A DNA stretch of 64,000 nucleotides from Amaricoccus solimangrovi (GTDB taxonomy: Bacteria; Pseudomonadota; Alphaproteobacteria; Rhodobacterales; Rhodobacteraceae). Shown piece after piece: positions 34,124 through 50,713 of the stretch. The notes beneath the pieces were generated by a model. That model was not told where the DNA came from. It ran no database searches and saw only the letters and a list, made by a program, of their open reading frames with translations. The stretch spans positions 62,001 through 126,000 of the forward strand of contig NZ_VFRP01000004.1 in assembly GCF_006385685.1 (NCBI RefSeq), in the 5' to 3' direction. Made by a program: the position numbers and the translations under genes. The stretch's first letter is position 1. Each line of letters begins with the position of its first letter.

Positions 34124-35134
34124 ATGCTGACACGTCGCGGCTTCAACGCCCTGACGGCCGGAGCGCTCGCAACCCTGTCGGCGCCAGGCATCGTCCGCGC
34201 GCAGGACAAGATCACCGTCAAGTTCAGCCACGTCGTCGCGCCCGACACGCCGAAGGGCAAGGGCGCGCTCCGGTTCAAGGAACTGGCGGAGCAGTATACC
34301 GACGGCGCGGTGACGGTGGAGGTCTATCCCAACAGCCAGCTCTACAAGGACAAGGAGGAGCTCGAGGCGCTCCAGCTCGGCGCGGTGCAGATGCTCGCGC
34401 CCTCGCTCGCGAAATTCGGCCCGCTCGGCGTGCAGCAGTTCGAACTCTTCGACCTGCCGATGCTGATGAACAGCCGCGAGGATCTGCGCAAGATCACCGA
34501 CGGGCCGGTCGGCAAGCAGCTGCTCGGGATGCTCGAGCCGAAGGGGATCATCGGCCTCGCCTACTGGGACAACGGCTTCAAGATCATGTCGGCGAACTCG
34601 CCGCTGCACGTTCCCGACGATTTCCTCGGCCTCAAGATGCGCATCCAGTCCTCGAAGATCCTCGAGGCGCAGATGGAGGCGCTCGGCGCGGTGCCGCAGG
34701 TGATGGCCTTCTCCGAGGTCTACCAGGCGCTCCAGACCGGCGTCGTCGACGGGACCGAGAACCCGCCCTCGAACATGTATACCCAGCGGATGAACGAGGT
34801 GCAGAAACACGCGACGCTGTCGCGCCACGGCTATCTCGGCTACGCGGTCATCGTGAACGCGGACTTCTGGAAGGGCCTGCCGGAGGATACCCGCGCCAGC
34901 CTCGACAAGGCGATGGCGGAGGCGACGGTCTATGCCAATTCGATCGCCGAGGAGGAGAATGCGAACGCGCTCCAGGCGATGATGGACGCGGGCACCACCA
35001 CCTTCTACGAGCTCCCCCCCGACGAGCGGGCGGAGTGGGAGGCGGTGCTGAGGCCGGTGCACGAGCAGATGGCGGACCGGATCGGCCCCGAGCTGATCCA
35101 GCAGGTCTACGACACGCTCGGCACGCCGAGCTGA
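34124..35134 (+). CDS. dctP: TRAP transporter substrate-binding protein, C4-dicarboxylate (DctP) type
   Basis: This is a periplasmic binding protein of the TAXI-unrelated DctP family, 336 residues. The signal is Tat-like (TRRGFNALTAGALATLSAPGIVRAQ). The sequence FSHVVAPDTPKGKGALRFKELAEQ, YPNSQLYKDKEELEALQLGAVQMLAPS and FSEVYQALQTGVVDGTENPPSN closely matches DctP proteins that bind malate, succinate and fumarate, including the conserved Arg in KMRIQSS that grips the carboxylate. AGGGGAGG lies before the ATG. It is the first gene of dctPQM. Confidence 0.93.
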   Translation: MLTRRGFNALTAGALATLSAPGIVRAQDKITVKFSHVVAPDTPKGKGALRFKELAEQYTDGAVTVEVYPNSQLYKDKEELEALQLGAVQMLAPSLAKFGPLGVQQFELFDLPMLMNSREDLRKITDGPVGKQLLGMLEPKGIIGLAYWDNGFKIMSANSPLHVPDDFLGLKMRIQSSKILEAQMEALGAVPQVMAFSEVYQALQTGVVDGTENPPSNMYTQRMNEVQKHATLSRHGYLGYAVIVNADFWKGLPEDTRASLDKAMAEATVYANSIAEEENANALQAMMDAGTTTFYELPPDERAEWEAVLRPVHEQMADRIGPELIQQVYDTLGTPS

Positions 35135-35186
35135 TCCATCCGCGGGCGGGCGGAGGATCCGCCCGTCCCCTGCCCGAGGGCGTGCC

Positions 35187-35819
35187 ATGCTCCTGCGTAT
35201 CCTCGACCGGTTCGAGGAGATCCTGATCTCGGTGCTGATGGCGCTCGCCGTCGCGCTCATCTTCGTCGCGGTCCTGCACCGCTTCTCGATCGGCTTCGCC
35301 GCCGACCTGGTCGGCTGGGCGAGAGCCTACGAGCTGCCCTGGCTGATGGATTTCGCCCGCTCGACCTTCAAGGCGATCAATTCGATCAAGCTCACCTGGG
35401 CGCAGGAGGCCTGCATCTACCTCTTCGTCTGGATGGCGAAGTTCGGCGCCGCCTATGGCGTCAGGATCGGCATCCATGTCGGCGTCGACATCCTCTCCGA
35501 CCGGCTGCGGGGCCCGGCGAAGACCATCATCACCGTTATCGCCATGTCGGGCGGCATCCTCTTCACCGCGATCATCGCCTGGATCGGCGCCGAATTCGTC
35601 TGGCACGTGCGCGCGGGCGGCCAGACCTCGCCCGATCTCGAGATGCCGATGTGGATCATCTATCTCGCCGTCCCGCTCGGCTCGGCGCTCATGTGCTTCC
35701 GCTTCATACAGGCGCTCTGGATCTACCTGCGGACGGGCGAGATCGCGCATCATGATCTCGCCTCGGTCGAGGGCGTCAGGGAAGAGGGGCGCGACGTCGC
35801 CGAGGGAGGCCACGGATGA
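35187..35819 (+). CDS. dctQ: TRAP transporter small permease (DctQ)
   Basis: This is a four-helix small membrane subunit of the TRAP transporter, 210 residues. Helices lie near residues 12-30, 70-92, 112-135 and 152-172. The long first periplasmic loop and the WAQEACIYLFVWMAKFGAAYGVR segment are typical of C4-dicarboxylate DctQ proteins. The small subunit helps fold and dock the large permease. Its stop overlaps the dctM start by 4 bp (ATGA), giving coupled synthesis. Confidence 0.92.
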   Translation: MLLRILDRFEEILISVLMALAVALIFVAVLHRFSIGFAADLVGWARAYELPWLMDFARSTFKAINSIKLTWAQEACIYLFVWMAKFGAAYGVRIGIHVGVDILSDRLRGPAKTIITVIAMSGGILFTAIIAWIGAEFVWHVRAGGQTSPDLEMPMWIIYLAVPLGSALMCFRFIQALWIYLRTGEIAHHDLASVEGVREEGRDVAEGGHG

Positions 35820-37141
35820 CCGCGCTCATCATCTTCCTGATCCTCGCCGCGCTTCTGATCACCGGCATGCCGGTCTCGATCGCGCTCGGCCTCACGGTCT
35901 TCGCCTTCCTGTTCGGCTTCACCACGATCCCGCTCGATTCGATCGCCCTGAAGCTCTTCACCGGCATCGAGAAGTTCGAGATCATGGCGATCCCGTTCTT
36001 CATCCTCGCCGGCAATTTCCTGACCCATGGCGGGGTGGCGCGCCGGATGATCCGCTTCGCGACCGCGATGGTCGGGCACTGGTACGGCGGCATGGGGCTC
36101 GCCGCCGTGCTCTCCTGCGCGCTCTTCGCGGCGATCTCGGGCTCCTCGCCCGCGACGGTGATGGCGGTCGGCTCTATCCTGCTGCCCGCGATGGTCCAGC
36201 AGGGCTATCCGCCGCGCTTCGGCGTCGGCACGGTCACGACCGCCGGCGGGCTCGGCATCCTGATCCCGCCCTCGATCGTGATGGTGATGTATTCGGTCGC
36301 GACCTCCGGCATGGTCGCGACCGGGCCGGACGGCGGGCAGGTGCTCTCCGCCTCGATCGGCACGCTCTTCATGGCGGGCGTCGTGCCCGGCATCCTGCTC
36401 GCCATGATGCTCGGCGCCACGACGATCTTCCGCGCCTGGCGCAATGACTACCCGAGGATGGAGCGGGCGGGCTGGGGCGAACGCTGGCGGGCCTTCCGCG
36501 AGTCGATCTGGGGGCTCCTGCTCATCGTCATCATCATGGGCGGGATCTACGGCGGGATCTTCACGCCCACCGAGGCCGCGGCCGTCAGCGCGGTCTACGC
36601 CTTCGTGATCGCGGTCTGGGTCTATCGCGACATCCGGCTGCGCGACGTGCCCCGGGTGCTGCTCACCTCCGCGGCGATGTCGGCGATGCTGCTCTACATC
36701 ATCACCAACGCGGTGATGTTCGCCTTCATCCTGACCTCGGAACAGATCCCGCAGGCGATGTCGAGCTGGATCGTCGACCAGGGCCTCGGCAGGATCGGCT
36801 TCCTGCTCGTCGTCAACGTGCTCCTGCTCGCGATCGGCATGGTGATGGAGCCCTCGGCCATCGTGCTGATCATGGCGCCGATCCTCTACCCGGTCGCGGT
36901 CAGGCTCGGCGTCGATCCGGTGCATTTCGGGATCATGATGGTGGTCAACATGGAGATCGGCCTCTGCACGCCCCCGGTCGGGCTCAATCTCTACGTGGGT
37001 TCCGCGATCTCGAAGCTCGGCCTGACAGAAGTCACGAGGGCGGCGGCGCCCTGGATCCTCACGGCGCTGGCCTTCCTGATGCTCGTGACCTACCTCCCCG
37101 ACATAACGCTGCTTCTGCCGAGGCTCCTCGGGATGAACTGA
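35816..37141 (+). CDS. dctM: TRAP transporter large permease (DctM)
   Basis: This is the 441-residue, roughly 12-helix sodium-coupled permease of the DctM family in the ion-transporter superfamily. The two pseudo-symmetric substrate/ion-binding hairpins are visible in ALFAAISGSSPATVMAVGSILLPAM with TTAGGLGILIPPSIVMVMY, and in NMEIGLCTPPVGLNLYVG. It carries C4-dicarboxylates inward with the DctP-bound substrate. Dicarboxylates feed aspartate synthesis, which fits the cyanophycin genes nearby, although that link is inferred. Confidence 0.95.
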   Translation: MTALIIFLILAALLITGMPVSIALGLTVFAFLFGFTTIPLDSIALKLFTGIEKFEIMAIPFFILAGNFLTHGGVARRMIRFATAMVGHWYGGMGLAAVLSCALFAAISGSSPATVMAVGSILLPAMVQQGYPPRFGVGTVTTAGGLGILIPPSIVMVMYSVATSGMVATGPDGGQVLSASIGTLFMAGVVPGILLAMMLGATTIFRAWRNDYPRMERAGWGERWRAFRESIWGLLLIVIIMGGIYGGIFTPTEAAAVSAVYAFVIAVWVYRDIRLRDVPRVLLTSAAMSAMLLYIITNAVMFAFILTSEQIPQAMSSWIVDQGLGRIGFLLVVNVLLLAIGMVMEPSAIVLIMAPILYPVAVRLGVDPVHFGIMMVVNMEIGLCTPPVGLNLYVGSAISKLGLTEVTRAAAPWILTALAFLMLVTYLPDITLLLPRLLGMN

Positions 37142-37193: not shown

Positions 37194-38603
37194 ATGCCTC
37201 TCGACGCGCGTTTCGCCGGACTGGCCGGTGTGCTTCCGGCGGGCGTGATGCTCGCGATGATCGGCTACGAATACACCGGCCACCCGGCCTGGACCGCGAT
37301 CGCGGGCGTGCTCTCGGTCGCCGCCATCGCCGTCTTCAGCCTCGACGCGCCGCCCTCCCGCTCGGCCTTCGTCGTCGTCGGCCTCGGCCTCGCGGGATGG
37401 GCGGTCGCGACCCGACCCGACTGGCGCGCCGGCCTCGGCACGGCGATCGAGCGCGGCGCCTTCATCATCGCGCTCTTCACCGCGCTGACCGCGATCCGGA
37501 CGGCGGCGATGAGCTCGCGCGAGATCGTCGCCTGCGGCCGCTTCCTCGCGCGCCAGCCTCCGGGCCGGCGCTACCTCGCGCTGACGCTCGGCGGGCACCT
37601 CTTCGGGCTCGTGCTCATGTACGGCTCCATCGCGCTCCTCGGCGGGCTCGCGGCCGAGAGCACCGCGGCCGAGCCGGATGCCGAGATCCGGCGCCACCGG
37701 CTGCGGCGGATGCTGCTCGCGGTGCACCGGGGCTTCGCGGCGACGCTCTGCTGGTCGCCGATCGCCTTCTCGATGGCGATCACCACGACCCTGGTGCCGG
37801 GCGCGAGCTGGAGCCGCGCCGTGCTTCCCTGCCTCGTCAGCGCCGCGCTGCTCCTGCTCGGGGGCTGGGCGCTCGACACGGTCTTCAAGCCGAGGCTGTC
37901 ACGCCCCGCGCCGCCGCCGGCGGCCGTCGAGCCCGGCGGCTGGGTCGAGAACCTGCGCCCGCTCATCCTGCTGCTCGTCACCGTGGTCGCGGGGGCGGCG
38001 CTTCTGCGCGCGCTGACCGGGGTCGAGATCGTCGGCGCGGTCATGTCGCTCGTGCCCGCCGTCGCGGTCGGCTGGATCTTCCTCCAGGGCTCGCCCTTCG
38101 GCCGGAGCCGGGGCGCGCATACCGCCTCGCGCGTGGCGGACTTCGTCACCGGAGAGCTGGCGGCCTTCCGGGGCCAGATCCTGCTCCTCTTCATGGCCGC
38201 CTTCATCGGCAGCCTCGGCGCCTTCGTCCTCGTGCCGCTGATGGCCGATCACGGCCCCGACCTGACCGCGCCGCCGCCCGCGCTGATCGCGCTCGCGCTG
38301 CTCTGGATCATCCCGCTGACGGGGCAGCTCGGCATGAACCCGATTCTCGCGGTCTCGCTGCTGATCCCGCTCGTGCCCGCGCCGGCGGCGCTCGGCCTCG
38401 ACCCGACCGTGCTCGTCGCCGCGATCACCGGCGGCTGGGCGCTGAGCGGCACGACCTCGCCCTTCACCGCCTCGGTGCTGCTCGTCGCCTCGATCGGCCG
38501 GGTGCGGCCGATCCGCGCGGGACTGGCCTGGAACGGCGCCTACATGCTCGTCATGGGCGCGGCGCTCTCGCTCTGGGTGCTGATCCTCGCCGCGCTGCTC
38601 TGA
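37194..38603 (+). CDS. Polytopic membrane protein, possible ion-transporter-superfamily permease
   Basis: The 469-residue product has about 12 hydrophobic segments and no recognisable soluble domain. Two internal stretches resemble the re-entrant hairpins of ion-transporter-superfamily permeases (DASS, CitMHS, TRAP-M): an early MLLAVHRGFAATLCWSPIAFSMAITTT, and a late GQLGMNPILAVSLLIPLVP with GGWALSGTTSPFTASVLLVAS. I cannot name the family. It follows dctM by 52 bp on the same strand, after a small GC hairpin. It converges on the cyanophycinase gene with a 2-bp gap. An amino-acid or dicarboxylate exporter is possible but unproven. Confidence 0.65.
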   Translation: MPLDARFAGLAGVLPAGVMLAMIGYEYTGHPAWTAIAGVLSVAAIAVFSLDAPPSRSAFVVVGLGLAGWAVATRPDWRAGLGTAIERGAFIIALFTALTAIRTAAMSSREIVACGRFLARQPPGRRYLALTLGGHLFGLVLMYGSIALLGGLAAESTAAEPDAEIRRHRLRRMLLAVHRGFAATLCWSPIAFSMAITTTLVPGASWSRAVLPCLVSAALLLLGGWALDTVFKPRLSRPAPPPAAVEPGGWVENLRPLILLLVTVVAGAALLRALTGVEIVGAVMSLVPAVAVGWIFLQGSPFGRSRGAHTASRVADFVTGELAAFRGQILLLFMAAFIGSLGAFVLVPLMADHGPDLTAPPPALIALALLWIIPLTGQLGMNPILAVSLLIPLVPAPAALGLDPTVLVAAITGGWALSGTTSPFTASVLLVASIGRVRPIRAGLAWNGAYMLVMGAALSLWVLILAALL

Positions 38604-38605
38604 TC

Positions 38606-40780
38606 TCAGGCGTCGTATTCGTCGCGCGGCGATTCGAGATCGAGCACGGCGCTGAGCGTGCCGCGCGAATGCAGACGCACCCGCGCCCCGCGCGCGCCGC
38701 GCGAATCGACGTCGCGCGCCAGATTCGCGGCCAGCCGTTCGAGCAGGGTCGGAGAGGCGGCGCAGGGGATCGCCCGGATCACCTCGCCGGTCGCGAGATC
38801 CGCGACATCGCCGGGGCCGACCACGGTCAGCCGGATGTCCTTCGCGACGAAACTGTCGCTCTGGAGCTCCAGCGCCGAGGCGGCGGTGTCGACGAGGACG
38901 AAACCATGCCGCCCCCGCGCCTCGAGCCGCGCGCCGTTCGCGGTGGCCACCACCGCGCTTTCCTCGCAGACGCCGATCCCGAAACGCTCGTTCTCCTCGG
39001 CGCAGGCGACGACGAGGCGGCCGAGCCGGCCCGAGGAGATGAGGTTCTGGTCGACGATTCCGGCGCCGAGAAAGCCGATCCCCTCCTGGATCACCAACCC
39101 GGGATGGCCGAGATCGGAGGTCACGCCGTAGCGCAGCGCCTCCTCCGAACTGCCGCCCGCGATCATCACCGAGGAAAGCGCCGCCGCCGCCCCGCTCGGC
39201 GCGATCAGCGCCGCGCCCCGCGCATGGGCGCGCGCGATGGCCCTCAGCACGCCGCTTTCCTCGCCCCGGTGCAGCATGGTCTCGACCAGCCGGATCTGGT
39301 TGCCGCCGCAAAGGAGCACCGCGTCGAGTTCCGCGATCCGGTTCAGCTGGTCGGGATCCGCGGACACATACTCGACCGTGTCGATCGTCACCCCGAGATC
39401 GATCCCGCGCAGCCCGGCCCGCTCCAGCGCGCGCAGATGGTCGGCCGCGGTCCGCGCCGGCTCGGCCGAGGCGGCGGCGATCACGCCGATCTCCCCGTTC
39501 CCGACCAGATCGCGCACCGCGCGCAGCAGGTCCCCGCCCCCCTCCCCGAGCGGCGAGGAACCGAGAAGGATGAGCGGCGCCCCCGGATTGACCGATTCCG
39601 CGCTCCAGCCGCGGCGGCCGGCGCGATCGGCGGCCCGCGCCTCGCTCAGATGCTCGCGGACCAGTTCCGCGCGGAAGTTCAGCGCCGTCATCCTGAGCCC
39701 GGTCTCGGGCGTCGCGATCAGGCCGCGCGAGAGCCGCGGCGGCTTTTCGAGCGTCACCGCCGCGTTGATCCCGGTCCTGACGTCGAGCGCCTCGCCCCGG
39801 TCCTCGGTGTAATGCGCCGGATCGCCGAGCACGAGCCGCGCCATCAGGTCGTAGAGCGCGTAGGCGCCGAAGACGTTGCGGCGCGAATTGGCCGGCGCGC
39901 GATAGGCGAGTTCGCGTTTGCGCACCCGCCGCTTCGCCGCGCCCGGATGGCCACGCAGCTTGCGCAGATCGATCCAGTCGCCGTCGTCGACATAGGAGAG
40001 CCGGAATTCCTGCACCGCCCGGCCTTCCGCGTCGGTCTTGCGCCGCCGCAGATCGACGAGCATCACGCCGTATTCGCCGCGGACCCGCGCGACATCGCCC
40101 TCGACGAGGAGCGCGGTGTTCTCGTCGATGCCGAAGCCCCAGCGCGCGCCCGCCGACTGCATCCCGACGATGAGCCGGCCGAGGCGGCCGCGCTTGATGA
40201 AATGCTGGTCGACCATGCCGAAGCCGAAGAAGCCGAGGCCGGTTCCCATCAGGAGCCCCGGCGCCTCCGGGTCGGAGGTGAGCCCGTGCACCACCGATTC
40301 GAGCGAGGTGCCGCCGAGGATCATCGGCCCCGACATCATCGCCGCGCCCGCGCTCGATCCCGCGACGAGCCCCCCGCGTCCATGCGCCGCGCGGATCGCC
40401 GCCAGCACCGGCGTCTCGGCCCCGTCGCGCAGGAGCGCGTCCACGATCTTCGCCTGATCGCCGCCGGTGAAATAGACGCTGCCGAAGGCGGCGATCTTCT
40501 CGATGATTCCCGGGTCGAAGGCGGCGCGCGCCGCGTTGCCCTCGTGCAGGTCGCAGACCTCGACCTCGAATCCGTGGCTCAGGAAGGCGTTCCGCGTCTC
40601 CGCGCCCACCTCCGCCGGCTCGCCGGAGGCGGTCGGAAAGACCAGGATCCGCCCGCCCGACAGGCGGTGCATCTCGCCGTAGACGGCGACATTGTCGTCC
40701 TCCAGCCGTCCGCCGATGACGGCGAGGCGCTTGCCGCCGGCGGCCGCGGCCCGCTCGGCCAGCACGGACCAAGGGGCCAT
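38606..40780 (-). CDS. Cyanophycinase with two tandem peptidase-S51-like domains
   Basis: Cyanophycinase hydrolyses cyanophycin to beta-Asp-Arg dipeptides. The first domain (about residues 18-300) has YFTGGDQAKIVDAL and the Ser-nucleophile motif GLVAGSSAGAAMMSGPMI (Ser143), then DENTALLVEGD. The second half (about 415-700) repeats the fold: LLCGGNQIRLVETML, ALIAPSGAAAALSSVMIAGG (near 528), and GLVIQEGIGFLGAGIVDQNLI paralleling GLLMGTGLGFFGFGMVDQHFI. Its nucleophile position has become Gly, so it looks catalytically dead. At 724 residues it is more than twice the usual ~270-residue bacterial enzyme. It lies 13 bp downstream of cphA, so the two share a transcript. Confidence 0.88.
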   Translation of the reverse strand: MAPWSVLAERAAAAGGKRLAVIGGRLEDDNVAVYGEMHRLSGGRILVFPTASGEPAEVGAETRNAFLSHGFEVEVCDLHEGNAARAAFDPGIIEKIAAFGSVYFTGGDQAKIVDALLRDGAETPVLAAIRAAHGRGGLVAGSSAGAAMMSGPMILGGTSLESVVHGLTSDPEAPGLLMGTGLGFFGFGMVDQHFIKRGRLGRLIVGMQSAGARWGFGIDENTALLVEGDVARVRGEYGVMLVDLRRRKTDAEGRAVQEFRLSYVDDGDWIDLRKLRGHPGAAKRRVRKRELAYRAPANSRRNVFGAYALYDLMARLVLGDPAHYTEDRGEALDVRTGINAAVTLEKPPRLSRGLIATPETGLRMTALNFRAELVREHLSEARAADRAGRRGWSAESVNPGAPLILLGSSPLGEGGGDLLRAVRDLVGNGEIGVIAAASAEPARTAADHLRALERAGLRGIDLGVTIDTVEYVSADPDQLNRIAELDAVLLCGGNQIRLVETMLHRGEESGVLRAIARAHARGAALIAPSGAAAALSSVMIAGGSSEEALRYGVTSDLGHPGLVIQEGIGFLGAGIVDQNLISSGRLGRLVVACAEENERFGIGVCEESAVVATANGARLEARGRHGFVLVDTAASALELQSDSFVAKDIRLTVVGPGDVADLATGEVIRAIPCAASPTLLERLAANLARDVDSRGARGARVRLHSRGTLSAVLDLESPRDEYDA

Positions 40781-40793: not shown

Positions 40794-43538
40794 TCAGTCA
40801 AGGGGGGCGATACGCACACCGCGCTCGTCGCTCACGATGCGATACCCTTCCGGTACATCGAAACCGGAGGCGGCGACCAGAGTCTCCGGCGCCACCGGCT
40901 CGGGTTTTTCCACCGGGTTGAAGTAGATGATGCGCTTCCAGGACCGCGTGATCCCCTCGCAGAAGATGAGCACCAGATCCTGCGGCCGCGCCATGTGGAG
41001 GGCGGTGTCGATCGAGTCCTCTTCCCGCGGCACGACCTCGATCCGCTCCGGATCGACGCCCTGCTCGATCAGGCGGGCCTTGATCATTTCCGGCACCTCA
41101 TCGGCCGTCCGGCCCCGCGGATCGTCGTCGGAATGGCAGATGTAGTGATCGAAATGGCCTGCGATCTTGTCGGCGATCGCGCGCACGTCCTCGTCGCGCC
41201 GGTCGCCCGGGCAGGTCGCGCAGATGATGCGCTTGCCGAGCGGCTGGAGCCGTTCCACCAGATCCACCATCGCGCCCACCGCCGCCTCGTTGTGGCCGTA
41301 GTCGAGGATCACGCGGAAGCCGTGCTCGTCATAGACGTTCATCCGGCCCGGGCTCTGGTAGAAGGTGTTGTCGAAGGTCCTGAGCCCGTTGCGGATCTGG
41401 TCCAGCGTCAGCCCCAGCGCATGCGCCATGGCGGCGGCGAACATCGCGTTCTCGACGTTGTGCAGCGCCTTGCCCTCGAGCGTCGCCGGGATGAGATGCG
41501 TCCAGATCAGCGGAACCTGCGCGCCATTCAGGTAGATCACGATCTGATCGCCGTTCAGCCCCTGCTCCAGTACGACGGCGGGCTGGCCGAGCCGGATATG
41601 CTCGCGCACGAGCGGGTGATCCGGGCGGCGCGTGACGTAGCAGATCTCGCGCGCCTCGGTGAAGGCGGCCATCTTCAGCGTCTGCTCGTCGTCGGCGTTC
41701 AGCACCGCGCAGTCCTTGGCGACCTCGACGACCAGCCGCTTGACCGTGGCCAGTTCCTCGAGCGTGTCGACCCCGCCGAGCCCGAGATGGTCCGAGGTCA
41801 CGTTCAGCACCGCGCCGACGTCGCAGTAGCGGTAGCCGAGCCCCGCGCGCACGATCCCGCCCCGCGCCGTCTCGAGCACAGCCATGTCGACCGACGGGTC
41901 GCGCAGGACCATCGAGGCCGCGACCGGCCCGGTCATGTCGCCGCGCACCGTGACGTTGCCGTCGATATAGACCGCGTCGGTTGAGGTCTGGCCGACGACA
42001 TGCCCGGCCATCTTCAGCACATGGGCGAGCATGCGCGCCGTCGTCGTCTTGCCGTTGGTGCCGGTCAGCGCCGCGATCGGGATCCGGCTCGGCGTGCCGG
42101 CCGGGAACAGCATCTCCATCACCTTGCCGCCGACGTCGCGGCTCTTGCCCTCGGAAGGCGCGATATGCATCCGCATGCCGGGCCCCGCGTTGATCTCGCA
42201 GATCGCGCCGCCGGTCTCGCGGAAGCTCCGGGTGATGTCGGAGGTGAGGAAATCGACGCCGCCGATATCGAGGCCCACGCCCCGGATCGCGCGTTCCGCC
42301 ATCAGCTTGTTGTCGGGATGGATCACGTCGGTCACGTCGATCGCGGTGCCGCCGGTCGAGATGTTCGCGGTCTTGCGAAGATAGACCACCTCTCCGTCCG
42401 CTGGCACCGTCTCGTGCGTGTAGCCCTTTTCCCGCAGCAGCGCGTCGGCGGCCTCGTCGAGTTCGAGGCGCGTCAGCATGTTCTCGTGCCCGACGCCCCG
42501 GCGCGGATCCTGGTTCACCACGTCGACCAGCGCGGCGATCGTGCTCTTCCCGTCGCCGACGACATGGCCCGGCATCCGGCGCGCGGCGGCGACGAGCTCG
42601 CCGTTCACCACGAAGAGCCGGTGGTCGTCTCCGAGGATCATGCTCTCGACCACGACGCCGCCCGAGCCTTCCTCCGCCGCCCGCTCGTAGGCGGCGGCGA
42701 CCTCCTCGTCGGCTGTGAGATTGACCGCGACGCCGCGGCCGTGATTGCCGTCGACCGGCTTCACCACCACCGGGTAGCCGATGTCCTTCGCCGCGTCGAT
42801 CGCGTCCTCGGCGTCGCGCACGAAGACCTGGCGCGGAACCGGCAGGCCGAGATCGTGGAGGAGCTTCGTGCAGAGTTCCTTGTCGGAGGCGATCTCGACG
42901 GCGATATGCGAGGTCTGGCTCGACAGCGCCGCCTCGATCCGCTTCGCGTATTTTCCCTGGCCGACCTGGATCATGCTGGCCTCGTTGAGCCGCGTCCAGG
43001 GAATGTCGCGCGCCTCCGCCGCGTGAACCAGCGCGAGCGCGGAAGGACCAAGCGCGCGGCGGCCGGCGAAGGAGTCGAAATCCTCGATCTCCTCGGCGAT
43101 GGCAGCGGCGTCCGCGCCCTCCTCCGGAGCGATCAGGTCGAGGATGATCTCCCGCGCGACCTCGCCGGCCTCGAGCCCGACCTCGCGCGATTCGTAGCCG
43201 TAGAGCACCTCGACGCAATCGGCCTCGGCCGAGGGCCGGGTGAAGGCCCCGTCGGAGGGGGCGCCGGCCCGGATCTGGAGCGCGAGCGCCACATGGGCGA
43301 GCAACTCGCCGAGGTGGCAGTCCGGCGCCTCGCGCAGCCTCGGCAGCAGGGGCGCGCCGGTCTCGGTCAGCGCATGCGAGAGCGTCGGCAATTCGCGCAG
43401 CAGCGGCGGCAGGAGAGCCTCGGCGTAATCCCGCACCGGTATCCCGGCGCGCCGATGCAGATCGAGCGTGAGCCGGATCATCGGCTGCCGGGAATAGACG
43501 TTCGGGCCGACGTAGACCGAGGACGAGACGATTTCCAT
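40794..43538 (-). CDS. cphA: Cyanophycin synthetase
   Basis: CphA makes multi-L-arginyl-poly-L-aspartate without a template, using ATP. The 914-residue protein shows all three modules. These are the N-domain (VYVGPNVYSRQPMIRLTLDL), an ATP-grasp domain adding Asp (YPVVVKPVDGNHGRGVAVNL through CEINAGPGMRMH), and a Mur-ligase-like domain adding Arg with P-loop TGTNGKTTTARM near residue 492, LETARGGIVRAGLGY and NVTSDHLGLGG. The ATG has AGGAG at 5 bases. Orientation and spacing give a cphA-cyanophycinase operon. No second synthetase (cphA2) is present. Confidence 0.97.
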   Translation of the reverse strand: MEIVSSSVYVGPNVYSRQPMIRLTLDLHRRAGIPVRDYAEALLPPLLRELPTLSHALTETGAPLLPRLREAPDCHLGELLAHVALALQIRAGAPSDGAFTRPSAEADCVEVLYGYESREVGLEAGEVAREIILDLIAPEEGADAAAIAEEIEDFDSFAGRRALGPSALALVHAAEARDIPWTRLNEASMIQVGQGKYAKRIEAALSSQTSHIAVEIASDKELCTKLLHDLGLPVPRQVFVRDAEDAIDAAKDIGYPVVVKPVDGNHGRGVAVNLTADEEVAAAYERAAEEGSGGVVVESMILGDDHRLFVVNGELVAAARRMPGHVVGDGKSTIAALVDVVNQDPRRGVGHENMLTRLELDEAADALLREKGYTHETVPADGEVVYLRKTANISTGGTAIDVTDVIHPDNKLMAERAIRGVGLDIGGVDFLTSDITRSFRETGGAICEINAGPGMRMHIAPSEGKSRDVGGKVMEMLFPAGTPSRIPIAALTGTNGKTTTARMLAHVLKMAGHVVGQTSTDAVYIDGNVTVRGDMTGPVAASMVLRDPSVDMAVLETARGGIVRAGLGYRYCDVGAVLNVTSDHLGLGGVDTLEELATVKRLVVEVAKDCAVLNADDEQTLKMAAFTEAREICYVTRRPDHPLVREHIRLGQPAVVLEQGLNGDQIVIYLNGAQVPLIWTHLIPATLEGKALHNVENAMFAAAMAHALGLTLDQIRNGLRTFDNTFYQSPGRMNVYDEHGFRVILDYGHNEAAVGAMVDLVERLQPLGKRIICATCPGDRRDEDVRAIADKIAGHFDHYICHSDDDPRGRTADEVPEMIKARLIEQGVDPERIEVVPREEDSIDTALHMARPQDLVLIFCEGITRSWKRIIYFNPVEKPEPVAPETLVAASGFDVPEGYRIVSDERGVRIAPLD

Positions 43539-43633: not shown

Positions 43634-44794
43634 ATGACGGGCGAGGCGACGAGCGAGCCGGGGCGAGGGGGACGGCGCGAGGTGATCGCGCTGCCTCCGG
43701 TCGCACCCGGAACGAGACGGGAGCTGACGGTGCTCCGGTTCGGGACGCCGGGCGCGCGGCCGAAGGCCTATCTGCAGGCGGGTCTGCACGCGGACGAACT
43801 GCCCGGGATGCTGATCCTCTCGATCCTCGCCGACCTCCTGGCCGGCGCGGAGGCGCGCGGCGAGATCCGGGGCGAGATCGTGCTCGTGCCGGTCGCGAAT
43901 CCGATCGGCCTCGCGCAGCACCGCGCGGGCTTCCTGCTCGGCCGCTACGACAACAGTTCGACCGGCAACTACAACCGCGACTACCTCGACCTCGCCCGGA
44001 TGATCGAGCCCCGCCTCGCCGGTCGCCTCGGGGCCGACGCGGCGGCGAATGTCGCGATCATCCGCGCCGCGATGGCCGAGGCGCTGGCCGGGGAGGAGCC
44101 GCTGACCGAGGTCGCGGCGCTCCGCCACGCGCTGCTCACCCTGTCGCACGACGCGGATTTCATGCTCGACCTGCACGCGGACAACGCGGCGGAGGTGCAT
44201 CTCTACACCGGCACGCCGCTCTGGCCCGACGCCGCCGATCTCGCGGCCGGGATCGGCGCGCGCGCCGTGCTGCTCGCCGAGCTTTCCGGCGGCAACCCGT
44301 TCGACGAGGCGGTTGGCGGCCCCTGGTGGAGCCTCGCCCGCGCCTATCCCGACGCGGCGATCCCGCCCGCCTGCCTGTCCGCGACGCTCGAGATGCGCTC
44401 GAACGACGCGGTGGACGGCGACCTTGCCCAAGGCGACGCGCTGGCGCTCCTGGACTTCCTGAGGCGCCGGGGACTGGTTTCGGGCGCGGCCGCCGAGTTG
44501 CCCCGGTCGCTCTGCGACGCCACCCCGCTCGAGGCGATGCAGCAGGTGACCGCCACGGCCGCGGGCATCGTGGTCTACAAGGCCGCGCTCGGCGCCATGG
44601 TGGCGGACGGCGACCTGATCGCCGAGATCGTCGACCCGCTCGGCCTGACCCCGCCCGCGGAGATCCGCGCGCGCACCGCCGGCGTCCTCTTCGCGCGGCA
44701 TTCGCAGCCCTATGCCTGGAGCGGCAAGATCATCGCCAAGATCGCCGGCGCCGAGCCGCTGCCCGAGCGGACGGGAAAGCTCCTGCCCGGCTGA
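43634..44794 (+). CDS. Succinylglutamate desuccinylase/aspartoacylase-family zinc hydrolase
   Basis: This is an M14-like metallohydrolase of 386 residues. The zinc ligands are His52 and Glu55 (GLHADELPGM) and His181 (DLHAD). The probable catalytic Glu253 is in LSATLEMRSND. The C-terminal region (TATAAGIVVYKAALGAMVADGDLIAEIVDPLG) is the small beta domain common to the aspartoacylase/AstE/DoeB group. It is divergent from cphA with a 95-bp gap and faces the Lrp-arginase-rocD genes. Aspartoacylases cleave N-acyl-Asp, so a role in splitting the beta-Asp-Arg dipeptide is attractive but inferred. N-acetyl-diamino-acid deacylation is the main alternative. Confidence 0.85.
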   Translation: MTGEATSEPGRGGRREVIALPPVAPGTRRELTVLRFGTPGARPKAYLQAGLHADELPGMLILSILADLLAGAEARGEIRGEIVLVPVANPIGLAQHRAGFLLGRYDNSSTGNYNRDYLDLARMIEPRLAGRLGADAAANVAIIRAAMAEALAGEEPLTEVAALRHALLTLSHDADFMLDLHADNAAEVHLYTGTPLWPDAADLAAGIGARAVLLAELSGGNPFDEAVGGPWWSLARAYPDAAIPPACLSATLEMRSNDAVDGDLAQGDALALLDFLRRRGLVSGAAAELPRSLCDATPLEAMQQVTATAAGIVVYKAALGAMVADGDLIAEIVDPLGLTPPAEIRARTAGVLFARHSQPYAWSGKIIAKIAGAEPLPERTGKLLPG

Positions 44795-44847
44795 CGGGGG
44801 CGCGACACGGGGCGGCGGATCGGAATCTGACGTGCGAGGCGGGAAGG

Positions 44848-44922: not shown

Positions 44923-44928
44923 GGCCCT

Positions 44929-45357
44929 CTACCCCAATTCCGCGAGCAATATGCTCGTCTCCGAATTCGCCACCGCCGGCATCGCACGGATCGCGGTCAG
45001 CGCCGCGTCGAGCGCGGCGAGATCGGGCGTGACCAGTTCCGCGATCATGTCCCAGCGGCCGTTGGTCGAATGCACCCGGCCCACCTCGGGCATCCGCCGC
45101 AGTTGCGCCACCACGCGCCGCGCCTCGGCGGCGCGCAGTTCGATCGCCATGATGGCGCGCACACCCCCGCCACCTTCGTCGCCGCGCACCCGCGCGGTGA
45201 AGCCGAGGAGCACGCCCCGGCGCAGCAGCCGGTCGATCCGGTTCTGCGCCGTGCCCCGCGAGACGCCGAGATGGCGCGCCAGCGTCGCCGTCGGCATCCG
45301 CCCGTCCGCCCGCAGCAGCCCGATCAGCCGTGCATCGAGGTCATCCAGCCCGCTCAT
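44929..45357 (-). CDS. Lrp/AsnC-family transcriptional regulator
   Basis: This is a 142-residue feast/famine regulator. The N-terminal winged helix-turn-helix is DDLDARLIGLLRADGRMPTATLARHLGVSRGTAQNRIDRLLRRGVLLGF. The C-terminal RAM ligand-binding domain runs from GVRAIMAIELRAAEARRVVAQLR to the end. It is divergent from arginase across 135 bp containing a repeated ATCTGACGAT element. In agrobacteria an Lrp-type gene of this kind (arcR) sits beside arginase genes and responds to arginine, so the same job is likely here. The start MSGLDD was chosen by homology because the ribosome site is weak. Confidence 0.92.
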   Translation of the reverse strand: MSGLDDLDARLIGLLRADGRMPTATLARHLGVSRGTAQNRIDRLLRRGVLLGFTARVRGDEGGGGVRAIMAIELRAAEARRVVAQLRRMPEVGRVHSTNGRWDMIAELVTPDLAALDAALTAIRAMPAVANSETSILLAELG

Positions 45358-45398
45358 CTGACGATCCGCGCATGAAATCTGACGATACGTCAGCAGAT
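45356..45398. promoter_or_regulatory. Candidate Lrp operator between regulator and arginase
   Basis: The 10-mer ATCTGACGAT occurs at 45356-45365 and again at 45377-45386, exactly 21 bp apart, or two helical turns. The second copy continues into ACGTCAGCAGAT, making an imperfect inverted repeat (ATCTGACG / CGTCAG-C-AGAT). The first copy overlaps the start codon of the Lrp gene. Phased, partly symmetric sites are typical of Lrp-family binding and would allow autoregulation and arginase control. Confidence 0.55.
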
Positions 45399-45492
45399 AG
45401 GACGGAATGCTCCACTTTGCCAGCTTTTCGCTAGCGCGCGGCCGCCATAGAAAAAGGCAGACCTCCGCCCGTGCACAAAAAGGGAGCGCGCA

Positions 45493-46521
45493 TTGTACGA
45501 CAGGCCGTGTCCGGAAGAATACCTCGCCTCGCATACCCGTCAGGACATCCTGATGCTCGGGATCGGGCTCGAACTCGGCGCTTCGACACGCGGCGCGCTG
45601 ATGGGGCCGGACGCGCTGCGCACCGCCGGGATCGCGCCGATGCTCGCCAATCTCGGCCACCGCTTCGCCGATCGCGGCACGCTGCGCGAGGCCGAGCCGG
45701 TCCGGGTCGACATGGCCCCCGAATGGGCGGCGCGCTGCAATCACCTCGCGGAGATCGGCGGATGGACACGCGCGATCCATGACCGCGCCCATGCGATGAG
45801 CAAGGGCGCTGGCGGTCCCGGCGCGCCGGTGCCGCTCTTCGTCGGCGGCGACCATGCGATCTCGATGGGCACGATCTCGGGCGTCGCCCGCGCCTGCGCC
45901 GAGGCGGGGCGCGAGATCGCCGTGCTCTGGGTCGACGCCCATCCCGACTACAACACGCCCGAGACGACGCCCTCGGGCAACATGCACGGCATGTCGCTCG
46001 CCTTCCTCGCCGGCGACCCGATCCTCGCGCCGCTGCTCGACGGGAGCCGTCCGCTCGCGCCGGTCGCGCGCGAGAACATCCATGTCATCGGCGCGCGTTC
46101 GATCGACCCGGGCGAGCGGGCGCGGCTGCGCGCGCACGGGATCGACTGCGTCGACATGCGCCACATCGACGAGCGCGGCGTCTGCGCGCTGATGGAGGAG
46201 CGAATCGCGCGCTGGAAGGAACGCGGCGTCCACCTGCACCTCAGCCTCGACCTCGACAGCCTCGATCCCTCCGTCGCGCCGGGCACCGGCACCCAGGTTC
46301 CGGGCGGCGCGACCTACCGCGAGGCGCATCTCATCATGGAGATGCTGTCGGACAGCGGCCTCGTCGGTTCGATGGATCTGGTCGAACTCAACCCTTTCCT
46401 CGACGAGCGCGGGCGCAGCGCCGTGGTCGCGGTCGAACTGATCGCGAGCGTCTTCGGGCGCACCGTGCTCGACCGCCTGCCTGACGCGCGGCGCTTCGCC
46501 GACCTCCCCGCCCGCGCATGA
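45493..46521 (+). CDS. rocF: Arginase
   Basis: Arginase hydrolyses L-arginine to ornithine and urea with a di-manganese centre. The ureohydrolase motifs are complete: [36 protein letters not shown] and [23 protein letters not shown]. Length is 342 residues with a TTG start at 45493, supported by GGGAG at good spacing. An ATG at 45553 is an alternative that would trim the first beta strand. The 3' end lies beside rocD, with only 35 bp to its most likely start. No urease gene is in the window, so the fate of urea is unresolved. Confidence 0.94.
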
Positions 46522-46556
46522 CCGGGCGCCCGAAGATGAGCCAAGGAGAAAAAGAA

Positions 46557-47756
46557 ATGCTCGACGCCGCCGAACTGATCGCCCTCGAACACCGTCTCGG
46601 CGCCCACAACTACAAGCCGCTCGACGTGGTCCTCACCCGCGGCCAGGGCGTCTGGGTCGAGGATGTGGCGGGCAACCGCTACCTCGACTGCCTCTCGGCC
46701 TATTCCGCCGTGAACCAGGGCCATTGCCATCCGAAGATCCTCGCCGCGATGATCGACCAGGCGAGCCGGCTGACGCTGACCTCCCGCGCCTTCCGCAACG
46801 ACCAGCTCGGCCACTTCTACGAGGAACTCGCGACGCTGACGAAGAGCCACAAGGTGCTGCCGATGAACTCGGGCGCCGAGGCGGTCGAGACCGCGATCAA
46901 GGCGGTGCGCAAATGGGGCTACGAGATCAAGGGCGTGCCCGAGGACCGCGCCGAGATCATCGTCTGCGAGAACAACTTCCACGGCCGCACGCTCGGCATC
47001 GTCTCCTTCTCGACCGACCCGGACGCGCGCGGCGGCTTCGGCCCGTTCCTGCCCGGCTTCAAGGTGATCCCCTTCGGGGACGCCGAAGCGCTCGAGGCGG
47101 CGATCACCGAGAACACCGTCGCCTTCCTCGTCGAGCCGATCCAGGGCGAGGCCGGCGTCATCATCCCGCCAGCGGGCTATTTCACGCGCGTCCGCGAGCT
47201 CTGCTCCGCGAACAACGTCACGCTGATCCTCGACGAGATCCAGACGGGCCTCGGCCGCGCGGGCAAGCTGCTCGCCGAGGAGCACGAGGGGATCGAGGCC
47301 GACGTGACGCTGGTCGGCAAGGCACTCGGCGGTGGCTTCTACCCGATCTCGGCGGTGCTCTCGAACTCCGACGTGCTCGGGGTGCTCCAGCCGGGCCAGC
47401 ACGGCTCGACCTTCGGCGGCAACCCGCTCGCCTGCGCCGTGGCCCGGGCGGCGCTCAGGGTGCTGGTCGAGGAGGGGATGATCGAACGCTCGGCCGAACT
47501 CGGGGCCTATTTCAAGCAAGGCCTGGAAGCGATCCGCTCGAACCGCGTGAAGGAGGTGCGCGGCCGGGGCCTGATGCTCGCGGTCGAGCTCCACGAGGAG
47601 GCCGGGCCCGCGCGGCCGGTGGTCGAGGCGCTGCGCGAGGCGGGGCTGCTCGCCAAGGAGACGCATGGCCAGACCATCCGCTTCTCGCCGCCGCTCGTCA
47701 TCGAGCGGGCGGAGGTGGACTGGGCGCTCGAACGGATAGGCGCGGCGCTGCGGTGA
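46557..47756 (+). CDS. rocD: Ornithine--oxo-acid transaminase
   Basis: This class III PLP aminotransferase converts ornithine and 2-oxoglutarate to glutamate-5-semialdehyde and glutamate. Key segments are [59 protein letters not shown], the PLP lysine in [19 protein letters not shown], and [15 protein letters not shown] chose the ATG at 46557 because AAGGAG lies 8 bases upstream and the length (399) matches the family. In-frame ATGs at 46518 and 46536 lack ribosome sites. With rocF it completes arginine-to-glutamate catabolism. Confidence 0.94.
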
Positions 47757-47763
47757 GGGCGGC

Positions 47764-47777: not shown

Positions 47778-47781
47778 ACCC

Positions 47782-48579
47782 TCAGAGCAGCGTCGCCGCG
47801 CCCCGGTCGAGGTAGGTTTCGAGGAACTGGTCGATCCGGGGCTCGCGCGGCTTGGCGAAGACCTCGCCCGGCGCCCCCTCCACCAGGATCCGCCCGTGGT
47901 CGAGGAAGGCGATCTTCGAGCCGACCGAGGCGGCGAAGCCGATCTCGTGCGTGACGACCAGCATCGTCATGCCGCTCTCCGCCAGCCGCCGCATCACGTT
48001 CAGTACCTCCCCCGTCAGTTCGGGATCGAGCGAGGCGGTCGGCTCGTCGAAGAGCATGATCCCGGGATCGAGCGCGAGCGCGCGGGCGATCGCGACGCGC
48101 TGCTGCTGGCCGCCCGAGAGCTCGCTCGGGTAATGTCCCGCCCGCGCCCCCAGGCCGATCGCGTCGAGTTCCTTGCGCGCGCGCTCCTCCGCGTCGGCCC
48201 GGCTCATGCCGCGCACCGTCACCAGCGCCTCGGAGACGTTGCCGACCGCGGTCATGTGCGGCCAGAGGTTGAACTGCTGGAACACCATGCCGATCCGGCT
48301 CCGCACCTTGCGGATCTGGCGCGCCGGCAGCTTCACCCGCGCGCCGTTCGGCCCCCGGTCGAAGCCGAGCGGATCGCCGTTGATCGAGATATAGCCGTCG
48401 GTCGGCTCCTCTAGCAGCGCGACGCAGCGCAGCAGCGTGGACTTGCCCGAGCCGGAGGGGCCGATCAGACAGGTGACCTTGCCGCGCGGGATGTCGAGGT
48501 CGATCCCGTCGAGCACCCGCGTGGTGCCGAAATCCTTGCACAGCCCCTCGATGCGGACGGCGGGCATCGGCGCGCTCAT
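47782..48579 (-). CDS. Polar amino-acid ABC transporter ATPase
   Basis: This is a 265-residue ATPase of the PAAT (His/Glu/Gln/Arg) import family. It has Walker A GPSGSGKSTLLRCVALLEEPT, Q-loop GMVFQQFNLWPHMTAVGNV, signature LSGGQQQRVAIARALA, Walker B IMLFDEPTASLDPE, and switch His VVTHEIGFA. It closes a four-gene operon (binding protein, two permeases, ATPase), overlapping the upstream permease by 4 bp. Its place next to arginase and cyanophycin genes suggests arginine, ornithine or another basic amino acid as substrate, which is inferred. Confidence 0.94.
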   Translation of the reverse strand: MSAPMPAVRIEGLCKDFGTTRVLDGIDLDIPRGKVTCLIGPSGSGKSTLLRCVALLEEPTDGYISINGDPLGFDRGPNGARVKLPARQIRKVRSRIGMVFQQFNLWPHMTAVGNVSEALVTVRGMSRADAEERARKELDAIGLGARAGHYPSELSGGQQQRVAIARALALDPGIMLFDEPTASLDPELTGEVLNVMRRLAESGMTMLVVTHEIGFAASVGSKIAFLDHGRILVEGAPGEVFAKPREPRIDQFLETYLDRGAATLL

Positions 48580-49241
48580 GTCGCGAACCGGTATTTCGAG
48601 AGCCGCGCCTCGGCCCGGCGGCCGAGCGCGCCGCAGATCTCGACCAGCGCCCAGTAGAGGAGCGCGAGCACGGTGAAGCTCTCGACGAAGGCGTAATGCT
48701 GGGTGCCGATCGCGCTGACGCTCAAGGTCAGTTCCGGCAGCGAGATGATCGAGAGGATCGCCGTCTCCTTCAGGATGAGGATGGTCATGTTCACCATCGA
48801 GGGCAGGACGAGCACCGTCATCTCCGGCAGGATGATCCGCCTCAGCGTCTGCCATTCGGTGAAGCCGACGCAGTCGGCGGCCTCGAGGTGCCCCTTCGGG
48901 ATCGCGTCGAATCCGGCGCGCCAGAGCTCGGAGTAATAGGCCGCGGCGTAGATCGCGAGCGCGAGGATCCCCGCCGGGATGTTCTCGAGCCTCAGCCCGA
49001 TGAAGGGCCCGCCATAGTAGAGCAGGAACACCTGCACCAGGAAGGGCGTGCCCCGGATCACCTCGACGATGCCGCGCAGCAGCCAGCCGAGCGGCGCCGG
49101 GCCGTAGCGCCGGCCGACCGCGACGGCGAAGCCGACCGCGAGGCCGAGGGCCGAGCCGATCACCCAGAGCATCAGCGTGACGCCGAGCCCCTCGAGAATC
49201 CGCGGCAGATAGGAGAGGATGAGGCCGAGGTCGAAGCTCAT
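48576..49241 (-). CDS. Polar amino-acid ABC transporter permease
   Basis: This is a HisM/GltK-type inner membrane permease of 221 residues with about five helices. The EAA loop that docks the ATPase is visible in AIPKGHLEAADCVGFTEWQTLRRIILPEM. EVIRGTPFLVQVFLLYYGGP is a typical PAAT signature. The start at 49241 (MSFDLG) overlaps the stop of the upstream permease (ATGA). A longer start at 49253 would ignore that coupling. Confidence 0.92.
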   Translation of the reverse strand: MSFDLGLILSYLPRILEGLGVTLMLWVIGSALGLAVGFAVAVGRRYGPAPLGWLLRGIVEVIRGTPFLVQVFLLYYGGPFIGLRLENIPAGILALAIYAAAYYSELWRAGFDAIPKGHLEAADCVGFTEWQTLRRIILPEMTVLVLPSMVNMTILILKETAILSIISLPELTLSVSAIGTQHYAFVESFTVLALLYWALVEICGALGRRAEARLSKYRFAT

Positions 49242-49879
49242 ATCCGCCCCCATCTCAGCCGCGCCTCGAGCCCGGTGCCGAGCAGGGCGACGACGATGTT
49301 GATGACGAGATAGATGAGCCCGGCGGCGGCGTAGAGTTCGAGCGGGCGGTAGGTGCTCGCCGCGAGATCCTGCGCCATGCGCGTGAGCTCGATCACGCCC
49401 ACGACCGAGACGAGGGACGAGCTCTTCAGCATCATGATCGCCTCGGAGACGAGCGCGGGCAGCGTGAGCTTGAAGGCGATCGGAAGCCGGATCCTCCGGA
49501 AGGTCTGGGCCGCCGACATGCCGGTCATCTCCGCCGCCTCGAGAAGCCCGCTCGGCACCGCGCCGAGGCCGCCGCGCATGATCTCGGCCTGATAGGCGGC
49601 GGTGCAGAGCGCCATGCCGGTGATCGCCGCCACCTCGCTCGGCACGTCGAGCCCGATCGAGGGCAGCAGGTAGTAGATGAGCAGCAGCTGCACGAGGAGC
49701 GGCGTACCCCGGAAGAAGCTCACGAAGAGCCGCCCCGCCCCGCGCGCGACCCGGTTGTGCGAGAGCATGCCGGCGCAGACGAGGCAGGCGATCAGGAAGC
49801 CGATGGCGATCGCGCCCGCGGAGAGCAGCACGGTGAGCCGCGCCGCCTCCACCAGCAGCCAGAAGAGCTTCCAGGACAT
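49238..49879 (-). CDS. Polar amino-acid ABC transporter permease
   Basis: This is a second PAAT permease of 213 residues, pairing with its neighbour as a heterodimer. It shows SFFRGTPLLVQLLLIYYLLPSIG and the EAA loop AVPSGLLEAAEMTGMSAAQTFRRIRLPIAFKLTLPALV. About five membrane helices are predicted. It starts 15 bp after the binding-protein stop and is coupled to the next permease by a 4-bp overlap. Confidence 0.92.
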   Translation of the reverse strand: MSWKLFWLLVEAARLTVLLSAGAIAIGFLIACLVCAGMLSHNRVARGAGRLFVSFFRGTPLLVQLLLIYYLLPSIGLDVPSEVAAITGMALCTAAYQAEIMRGGLGAVPSGLLEAAEMTGMSAAQTFRRIRLPIAFKLTLPALVSEAIMMLKSSSLVSVVGVIELTRMAQDLAASTYRPLELYAAAGLIYLVINIVVALLGTGLEARLRWGRI

Positions 49880-49894
49880 CGGCCGCTCAGCGGA

Positions 49895-50713
49895 TCAGAA
49901 CGCCGCCTCGGTCACCTGGTCGGGCGTGTCGAAGGTCACGCCGAACCACTTCTTCTGCATCTCGCCGAGCCGGCCATCGGCTTTCATCTTCAGGATCGCC
50001 GCGTCGATCGCGTCCATCAGGGTCTTGTATTCGGGATCCTTGCGGCCCGGGAAACCGAAATAGGTCTTCACGCCGAAGGGCGGCTCGACCAGGGCGAAGG
50101 TCTCCGGGCGCTGCTGCGCGACATAGGCGATGTTGGGGTAGGAATTCGCGACCGCGACGATCCGGCCGGCGGCGAGATCGGCGTAGGCCTCGTTGAAGCT
50201 CACGTATTCCTTGATCTCGGAGGGCGGCGAGGGCAGCGTCGCCGCGTATTCCTGGAGCTGGGCGAGCTGGGCCGTCGCCTTGCCGCTCCCGACCGCCATG
50301 CCGCTGATCTGGTCGGGCTCCGTTACGCTGTCGTCGCCCGCCTGCTTGAGGAGCGCGACGGTCGCCTCCGCGACCGGGCTGGAGAAGCGGTAGCGCTCCA
50401 TCCGCGCCTGGGTGATCGTCGCCGGGCCGGCCACCATGTCGAACTTGCCGCTCTCGAGCCCGGGCAGTACGCCGTCCCAGGGCAGCGTCACCCATTCGAT
50501 CTTCACGCCCAGCTCCTTGCCGATCTCGTCGAAGAGATCGACGTTGAGCCCGACATGCTCGCCCGCGTCGATGAAGTCGAAGGGCGCGAAGGCGGTCTCG
50601 GTGCCGACGGTCAGCACGCCCGCCGCCTTCACCTTGTCGAGCACGTCCTCGGCCAGCGCGGCGGTGCCCACGGAGGCGGCGAGCGCGGCGGCGAGAATGG
50701 ATTTCAGGAACAT
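49895..50713 (-). CDS. Polar amino-acid ABC transporter substrate-binding protein
   Basis: This is a family 3 periplasmic binding protein of 272 residues with a signal peptide (cleavage near ALAEDV). The characteristic blocks are VLTVGTETAFAPFDFIDAGEHVGLNVDLFDEI and LPWDGVLPGLESGKFDMVAGPATITQARMERYRFS. The amino-acid backbone would be held by the Arg in TQARMERY and the Asp in the second lobe, as in the family. It is first in its operon. Specificity is not readable, but the genomic context favours arginine or ornithine. Confidence 0.92.
   Translation of the reverse strand: MFLKSILAAALAASVGTAALAEDVLDKVKAAGVLTVGTETAFAPFDFIDAGEHVGLNVDLFDEIGKELGVKIEWVTLPWDGVLPGLESGKFDMVAGPATITQARMERYRFSSPVAEATVALLKQAGDDSVTEPDQISGMAVGSGKATAQLAQLQEYAATLPSPPSEIKEYVSFNEAYADLAAGRIVAVANSYPNIAYVAQQRPETFALVEPPFGVKTYFGFPGRKDPEYKTLMDAIDAAILKMKADGRLGEMQKKWFGVTFDTPDQVTEAAF

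Follow-up and report, generated by a model that had tools for sequence, protein, structure and literature searches.

A two-domain cyanophycinase partnered with a primer-site-less cyanophycin synthetase and a probable dipeptide hydrolase in Amaricoccus solimangrovi

A stretch of 64,000 nucleotides from the Amaricoccus solimangrovi genome (contig NZ_VFRP01000004.1; G000:C71:62001-126000 in our indexing, from a genome of 4.86 Mb), hereafter the window, carries genes for making and breaking down cyanophycin, the Asp-Arg storage polymer, within its positions 34124-50713. Three of these genes form the subject of this report: a tandem, two-domain cyanophycinase (CphB), whose second domain is predicted to be catalytically dead; an adjoining cyanophycin synthetase (CphA) without the primer-making motif of the CphA1 N domain; and a probable cyanophycin-dipeptide hydrolase (CphZ). 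The cassette recurs in Pseudomonadota, Actinomycetota and one acidobacterial metagenome-assembled genome (MAG), and we consider that it probably serves as a conserved storage-and-release system, seemingly travelling between lineages, with an arginine-catabolic arm beside it. Its main interest lies in the partnership of the two-domain cyanophycinase with a primer-site-less CphA and CphZ, rather than in the list of neighbouring genes.

In the mechanism that we favor, CphA, which has no built-in endo-cyanophycinase site with which to make primers, would polymerize Asp and Arg once given a primer. The N domain of CphB would cut the polymer to beta-Asp-Arg, while the C domain, a predicted dead cyanophycinase fold that keeps several polymer-contact positions, most likely holds the chain. 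CphZ would split beta-Asp-Arg into its two amino acids; arginase and ornithine aminotransferase would then convert Arg to urea, glutamate semialdehyde and transferred nitrogen; and urease, whose alpha subunit has a match over cut-off elsewhere in the genome, would pass nitrogen on. An Lrp-type protein encoded alongside may sense arginine.

The tandem cyanophycinase and its partner synthetase

The cyanophycinase gene (cphB; 38606..40780, minus strand) encodes 724 residues from the ATG at 40780, in which two stretches match TIGR02069/S51, the whole protein scoring 242.8 bits against a cut-off of 126.6. Counted from an upstream GTG at 40819 (737 residues) rather than from that ATG, the N-terminal S51 domain (40034..40738) holds the putative catalytic Ser156, His206 and Glu233, and the C-terminal one (38870..39586) has Asn592 at the His position. 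Residues were compared across 35 full tandem proteins, the window's and those of 34 other loci, in Synechocystis numbering carried over by alignment; L082 and L098, with starts called too late, and L102 and L107, cut by contig ends, were omitted, and the mapped residues take in the catalytic triad and positions of polymer contact. Ser132, His174 and Glu201 are kept in the N domain of all 35, and this domain is predicted to be active. The C domain is predicted to be dead: its catalytic His position is Asn in 22 proteins, Lys in 13 and His in none, while its Glu position is Glu in 31 and Asp in four. Nonetheless, all 35 C domains retain the equivalents of Gln101, Asp172, Gln173 and Arg180, and 34 that of Arg183.

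Taken alone the C domain scores 91.8 bits on TIGR02069, under the cut-off, yet its fold is recognizably that of a cyanophycinase. A model of whole CphB (predicted local distance difference test score, pLDDT, 84.9; predicted template modeling score 0.81) has 7uqw, 7uqv and 3en0 as its best Foldseek matches, and a model of the C domain only (pLDDT 87.1) matches nine cyanophycinase chains with template modeling scores of 0.81-0.88 by target length; both models rank the nine known chains first. The two domains also seem to have been kept under similar purifying selection, with mean pairwise identities across tandems of 0.658 (N) and 0.632 (C), and ratios of nonsynonymous to synonymous substitution rates in 15 close pairs of 0.022-0.331 (N) and 0.018-0.352 (C). 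Here, then, a storage-polymer pathway includes a predicted pseudoenzyme domain whose degree of preservation roughly equals that of its presumably active twin. Since the N domains form one clade and the C domains another in a tree of 92 domains (near-duplicate rows were excluded from all trees), the tandem is most simply explained by one old duplication or fusion, afterwards inherited as a unit. The open-access literature searched, some of it in excerpt, yielded no two-domain cyanophycinase.

The synthetase gene (cphA; 40794..43538, minus strand) lies immediately upstream. Its stop codon (40794-40796) is separated from the first ATG of cphB by 13 bases on the same strand, making a shared transcript likely. 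The open reading frame (ORF) of 970 residues is too long, as homology to solved CphA begins at the ATG at 43538, which gives 914 residues, and PDB entries 7lgm and 7lgn align with the protein from residue 1. With 1005.5 bits on TIGR02068 (cut-off 850), the protein belongs to the CphA1 family. It lacks the motif Cx19HxxEH, to which PMC9262961 ascribes primer formation by the CphA1 N domain; the Tatumella synthetase TmCphA1, also without the motif, is described there as primer-dependent.

This absence is a regular feature of tandem loci. Allowing a spacing of 17-21, the motif is missing from all 33 tandem-adjacent CphA with a readable N-terminus, the window's included, and present in 46 of the 47 CphA that share a stretch with a single-domain cyanophycinase, L162 being the exception. 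The pattern was first seen on loci L055-L107; the later loci, L150-L205, add one tandem locus without the motif (L186, which has cphZ) and show the motif in 33 of 34 single-domain loci. The counts leave out L077, L089, L091 and L099, where the CphA N-terminus is lacking, and L087 and L096, where too little CphA remains; L093 was counted by hand as readable from its N-terminal ORF, and L102, a contig-end fragment classed as single by the script, stands outside the 47. L049 duplicates L068 and was excluded from the neighbor, tree-pair and motif counts. Of the 29 genomes of the phylum with CphA, 22 were read (19 plus the window's, G002 and G690), and among the other seven G845 shares its match coordinates with G1344 (L184); two further sets of genomes, of 18 and 21, were covered in full, the coordinates in G1227 equaling those in G791. 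Two observations stand apart from these counts: the motif-bearing CphA of L174-L176 occur with no cyanophycinase, and in L093 (about 7000-9900) the cphA of Mycolicibacterium litorale F4 is split into two ORFs, which may reflect gene breakage or an error in sequencing.

How far does this association reach? The tandem-linked rows make up a single lineage of the CphA tree, which also encloses the truncated L102, and an independent-pair test of tandem against motif loss offers at most one informative pair. Fisher p-values, which take no account of common descent, are given no weight here. As the tandem arose once, its link with motif loss is a lineage correlation and not proof, one evolutionary event kept over a wide range. 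A purely historical link, in which one founder cassette had both traits and passed them on as a unit without any compensation, is nearly as believable to us as it is doubtful. The single origin of the tandem speaks for it, as do L162, L181 and L185, whose motif-less CphA occur without a tandem and without a motif-bearing partner in the stretch examined. It fits less well with a pairing that holds at every readable locus across a wide range of bacteria, or with the finding that 16 of the 19 motif-less CphA outside the lineage (L162 included) adjoin a motif-bearing paralogue in the locus, where "motif-less" rests solely on the pattern search because these 19 N domains give only poor alignments to that of the window CphA, most of them starting at residue 46-157. 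Separately, 16 loci with two CphA-like genes (L156-L161, L163-L169 and L182-L184) combine a better match without the primer-site pattern and another that has it, a possible division of labor.

A further alternative concerns the C domain, which might be merely structural: the tandem would amount to an internal pseudo-dimer in which one site works and the dead half serves as scaffold. Cyanophycinases are known as oligomers, the two domains share the enzyme's fold and, by inspection of the tree, the N and C clades group similarly, as a fixed internal dimer predicts. Several of the polymer-contact residues kept in the C domain lie beyond those of the fold, however, and tilt the balance against this explanation, plausible as it is.

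More speculatively, and in our judgment rather improbably, the tandem could be a primer-keeping degrader, in which anchoring of the chain by the dead C domain makes the N domain spare short chains or cut internally, so priming the motif-less CphA. Synthetases without an N-domain site have been suggested to prime in the cell with leftover strands or other small molecules (PMC9262961). If the degrader did act in this way, the primer problem would have been solved in at least three ways: by the synthetase N domain, by a partner CphA paralogue, and by a two-domain degrader. For synthetases that lack the N-domain site, the cassette offers a concrete, genetically linked candidate for the source of primers.

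Dipeptide splitting and the reach of the cassette

The cphZ gene (43634..44794, plus strand) runs away from cphA, their start codons 95 bases apart, and the predicted steps of polymer synthesis, cutting and dipeptide splitting together span 6.2 kb. The 386-residue product, a hydrolase of the AstE/AspA type, matches 8ein with 394.9 bits in phmmer (E 3.7e-117) and 8eip with 392.1 (E 2.5e-116) over residues 19-381, and the other four solved proteins that it matched with at most 109 bits. Across this near-full-length homology the active-site His and Glu are kept: the alignment retains HADE, DLHADN, and a Glu that is Ala in 8eip. Both 8ein and 8eip are structures of CphZ. No match to PF01112 (IaaA), and none over cut-off to IadA, was found in the window genome. 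According to PMC10206079, where a cphA-cyanophycinase cluster contains a gene annotated as aspartoacylase-type, the product is a dipeptidase of the cyanophycin dipeptide hydrolase family, with specificity for beta-Asp-Arg/Lys; on these grounds, together with the 8ein/8eip matches and the lack of an IaaA or IadA match, the splitting of beta-Asp-Arg is most likely the work of CphZ.

Neighbor counts tie the gene to the tandem. Among loci with at least 7.5 kb on both sides, cphZ is found close to cphA-cphB in 19 of 21 with a tandem, compared with two of 23 loci with a single-domain cyanophycinase; when tandem loci of any length are counted, the window included, 31 of 39 have a CphZ match above 250 bits. 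Around the 46 motif-bearing CphA that accompany a single-domain cyanophycinase, none exceeds 100 bits. The cassette places CphZ-like genes beside cphA in both actinobacteria and proteobacteria.

Within the order, Rhodobacterales, cyanophycinase matches occur in 35 of 390 sampled genomes, the window's included, and a whole-tandem match in two of those 35, the window genome and G340; surroundings were read for 15 of them (these two and 13 others). The earlier note on this locus had called its combination of functions unusual for a Rhodobacterales-type genome, a description that holds only in part, given the 35 genomes and a cluster published in 2013 for Octadecabacter arcticus (PMC3646047). In the 33 cyanophycinase genomes of the order besides these two, CphZ matches stay under 70 bits, peaking at 69.5, but 14 of them have IaaA, within 5 kb of the cyanophycinase gene in 11, and in those 14 the cyanophycinase matches the N domain of the tandem only. 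With no strong CphZ match and IaaA frequent in these genomes, the order holds, on gene content, two different cyanophycin systems. IaaA is not exclusive to one of them, as it occurs elsewhere in the genome in two of nine tandem genomes searched (G340 and G772).

More broadly, a class sample gave any match in 12 of 385 genomes and added no tandem. A scan of 84,980 species genomes returned 40 loci, 38 of them (all but L104 and L106) with a tandem or a contig-end piece of one, a proportion that is not a frequency because the two peptide patterns used came from the tandem N domain. In all 38 of these tandem loci cphA adjoins the cyanophycinase. The hosts are Rhodobacterales, Parvularculaceae, Granulosicoccus, Tatumella, Mycobacterium/Mycolicibacterium, other actinobacterial MAGs and one MAG titled Acidobacteria, whose row sits among actinobacterial rows in the domain tree and which may be mis-binned. 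L075, from a MAG titled Exiguobacterium profundum (Bacillota), bears a Rhodobacterales-like cassette, and its title is probably wrong. A plasmid search with the tandem gave 18 records, none covering 80% of it.

The arginine arm, the regulator and the importers

Profile scans with Pfam and NCBIfam found every gene that the earlier note had named. On the plus strand dctPQM and a membrane-type gene come first; cphB and cphA (minus), cphZ (plus) and lrp (minus) follow, then arginase and ornithine aminotransferase (plus), and finally four ATP-binding cassette (ABC) importer genes (minus). Storage, release and arginine breakdown do lie side by side, as had been proposed, and the gene described as aspartoacylase-like most likely adds dipeptide splitting.

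The arginase (45493..46521, plus) scores 250.6 bits on TIGR01229 (cut-off 227.6), and the class III ornithine aminotransferase (46518..47756, plus) 531.6 on TIGR01885 (cut-off 378.4), while falling short of the threshold for the related NF003145 (583.4 against 656). Besides the window, arginase occurs in six tandem loci (L068, L076, L078, L084, L085 and L103; just under cut-off in L068 and L076), of which L076 and L078 have flanks too short for the 21-locus count. L068 and L076 repeat arginase-lrp-cphZ-cphA-cphB in the order and orientation of the window. In all five of the six that were scanned (all but L084), ornithine cyclodeaminase stands beside arginase instead of the aminotransferase. 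The aminotransferase itself is found in three of the 21 tandem loci, all mycobacterial, and in none of the 23 single-domain loci; mycobacterial L094 and L097 combine the window's kind with a gene resembling DDAH or arginine deiminase, L097 also with an amino-acid permease. An arm leading from arginine to ornithine and onward thus recurs with different enzymes, which favors function over chance, though in a minority of loci.

The Lrp/AsnC-type regulator (44929..45357, minus; start inferred) is recognized by PF13404 and PF01037, and might co-regulate its neighbors. An Rfam scan gave no matches over gathering scores. Between cphZ and lrp lie two exact copies of an 18-base palindrome, GGCGGACAAATGTCCGCC, at 44848-44865 and 44878-44895; the genome holds 68 matches at no more than one mismatch (39 forward, 29 reverse), against none for a reversed control, and the palindrome looks like a member of a repetitive extragenic palindromic (REP)-type family.

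Several observations count against a storage-and-release cassette with a chain-holding C domain and an arginine arm beside it. The nucleophile position of the C domain is still Ser in 26 of the 35 tandems (Gly in nine), so that its designation as dead rests on the lost His, and the equivalent of Arg178 is kept in none. Eight tandem loci have no CphZ match above 250 bits; five are cut there by a contig end, but L075, L081 and L082 are uncut, and a genome-wide search gave no CphZ match for L077, L081 or L082 and only a 43% match elsewhere for L075. Arginase accompanies cphA-cphB in only four of the 21 full-flank tandem loci, compared with none of the 23 single-domain ones. Finally, no sigma-70-like promoter was found at 43400-45700, a weak test in a high-G+C genome, and inspection by eye alone identified no regulator sites in the intergenic stretches.

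The earlier note envisaged a single nitrogen-reserve module that also took in both importers, and expected the neighbors of cphA to be conserved with it. The tandem cyanophycinase and cphZ live up to this expectation, arginase does so at a minority of loci, and the importers fall short of it. The DctP-DctQ-DctM tripartite ATP-independent periplasmic (TRAP) importer (34124..37141, plus) is of the C4-dicarboxylate type by Pfam and by the matches of DctP to structures of that type, and all the genes of the proposed module are present and adjacent; in the tandem loci, though, DctP occurs in none of 21 and DctM in one (none and two of the 23 single-domain loci), and we therefore reject the importer as a member. 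The family-3 polar amino-acid binding protein (49895..50713, minus; PF00497), which in the PDB is matched best by glutamine/arginine-type and ancestral binding proteins, is found in three of 21 against two of 23. These counts place the C4-dicarboxylate importer outside the module and leave the ABC link weak; an importer-inclusive module is accordingly improbable, and we favor storage and release with local arginine catabolism. The remaining ABC genes encode an ATPase (47782..48519, minus; start approximate; PF00005) and two permeases (48576-49253 and 49238-49879, minus; PF00528 twice). A 469-residue protein with a multi-pass membrane look, without Pfam or NCBIfam matches, is encoded between dctM and cphB (37194-38603, plus).

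Least probable of all, and only a slim prospect, is that the locus mainly scavenges outside cyanophycin or beta-Asp-Arg through its ABC importer, as the aot operon of Pseudomonas aeruginosa does: L052 and L053 do carry CphZ within a family-3 ABC set, near a single-domain cyanophycinase (frame about 460 codons) and with no CphA match in 20 kb, and look like scavenging clusters, but the window has a full-length cphA directly next to cphB.

Beyond the ABC importer, a gene for an MprF-type lysyl-phosphatidylglycerol synthase/flippase adjoins it at 50869-53631. In the same-genus genome G369 an MprF-like gene likewise adjoins a related ABC set, but the two are divergent and only 29-51% identical to those here. 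This genome was considered as an empty site and rejected: nothing in it matches the cyanophycinase, and its counterparts of the TRAP, ABC and MprF genes show 27-51% identity in a different arrangement, which precludes a before/after comparison.

Known systems

Solved cyanophycinases of the Synechocystis type (3en0, 7uqw; TIGR02069) share their fold and Ser/His/Glu with the N domain of the window protein. Their chains have 259-291 residues and one S51 domain, whereas the window CphB has two, adding an S51 domain without the catalytic His.

Among synthetases, 7lgn has an N-terminus identical to that of L083 and is hence taken as Tatumella morbirosei CphA1; it belongs to the same CphA lineage as the window protein, with 66-67% identity, and both lack Cx19HxxEH. 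So does 7lgm, probably Acinetobacter baylyi CphA. The Tatumella morbirosei genome (L083) also resembles the window in having a tandem cphB and cphZ beside cphA; the excerpts of PMC9262961, where this synthetase was tested, do not discuss the adjacent cyanophycinase.

The cluster of Octadecabacter arcticus, as described in PMC3646047, likewise brings together genes for making and degrading the polymer in a Roseobacter-clade genome; it was then called unique in that clade and thought to be horizontally acquired, its CphA falling in a mostly gammaproteobacterial group. The cphA-cyanophycinase-IaaA clusters, exemplified by Roseivivax halodurans in PMC10206079, follow the same three steps of storage and release, with IaaA as dipeptidase where the window would use CphZ. 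As for CphZ itself (reference 49 in PMC10206079), the window's putative hydrolase is a near-full-length homologue encoded next to cphA-cphB.

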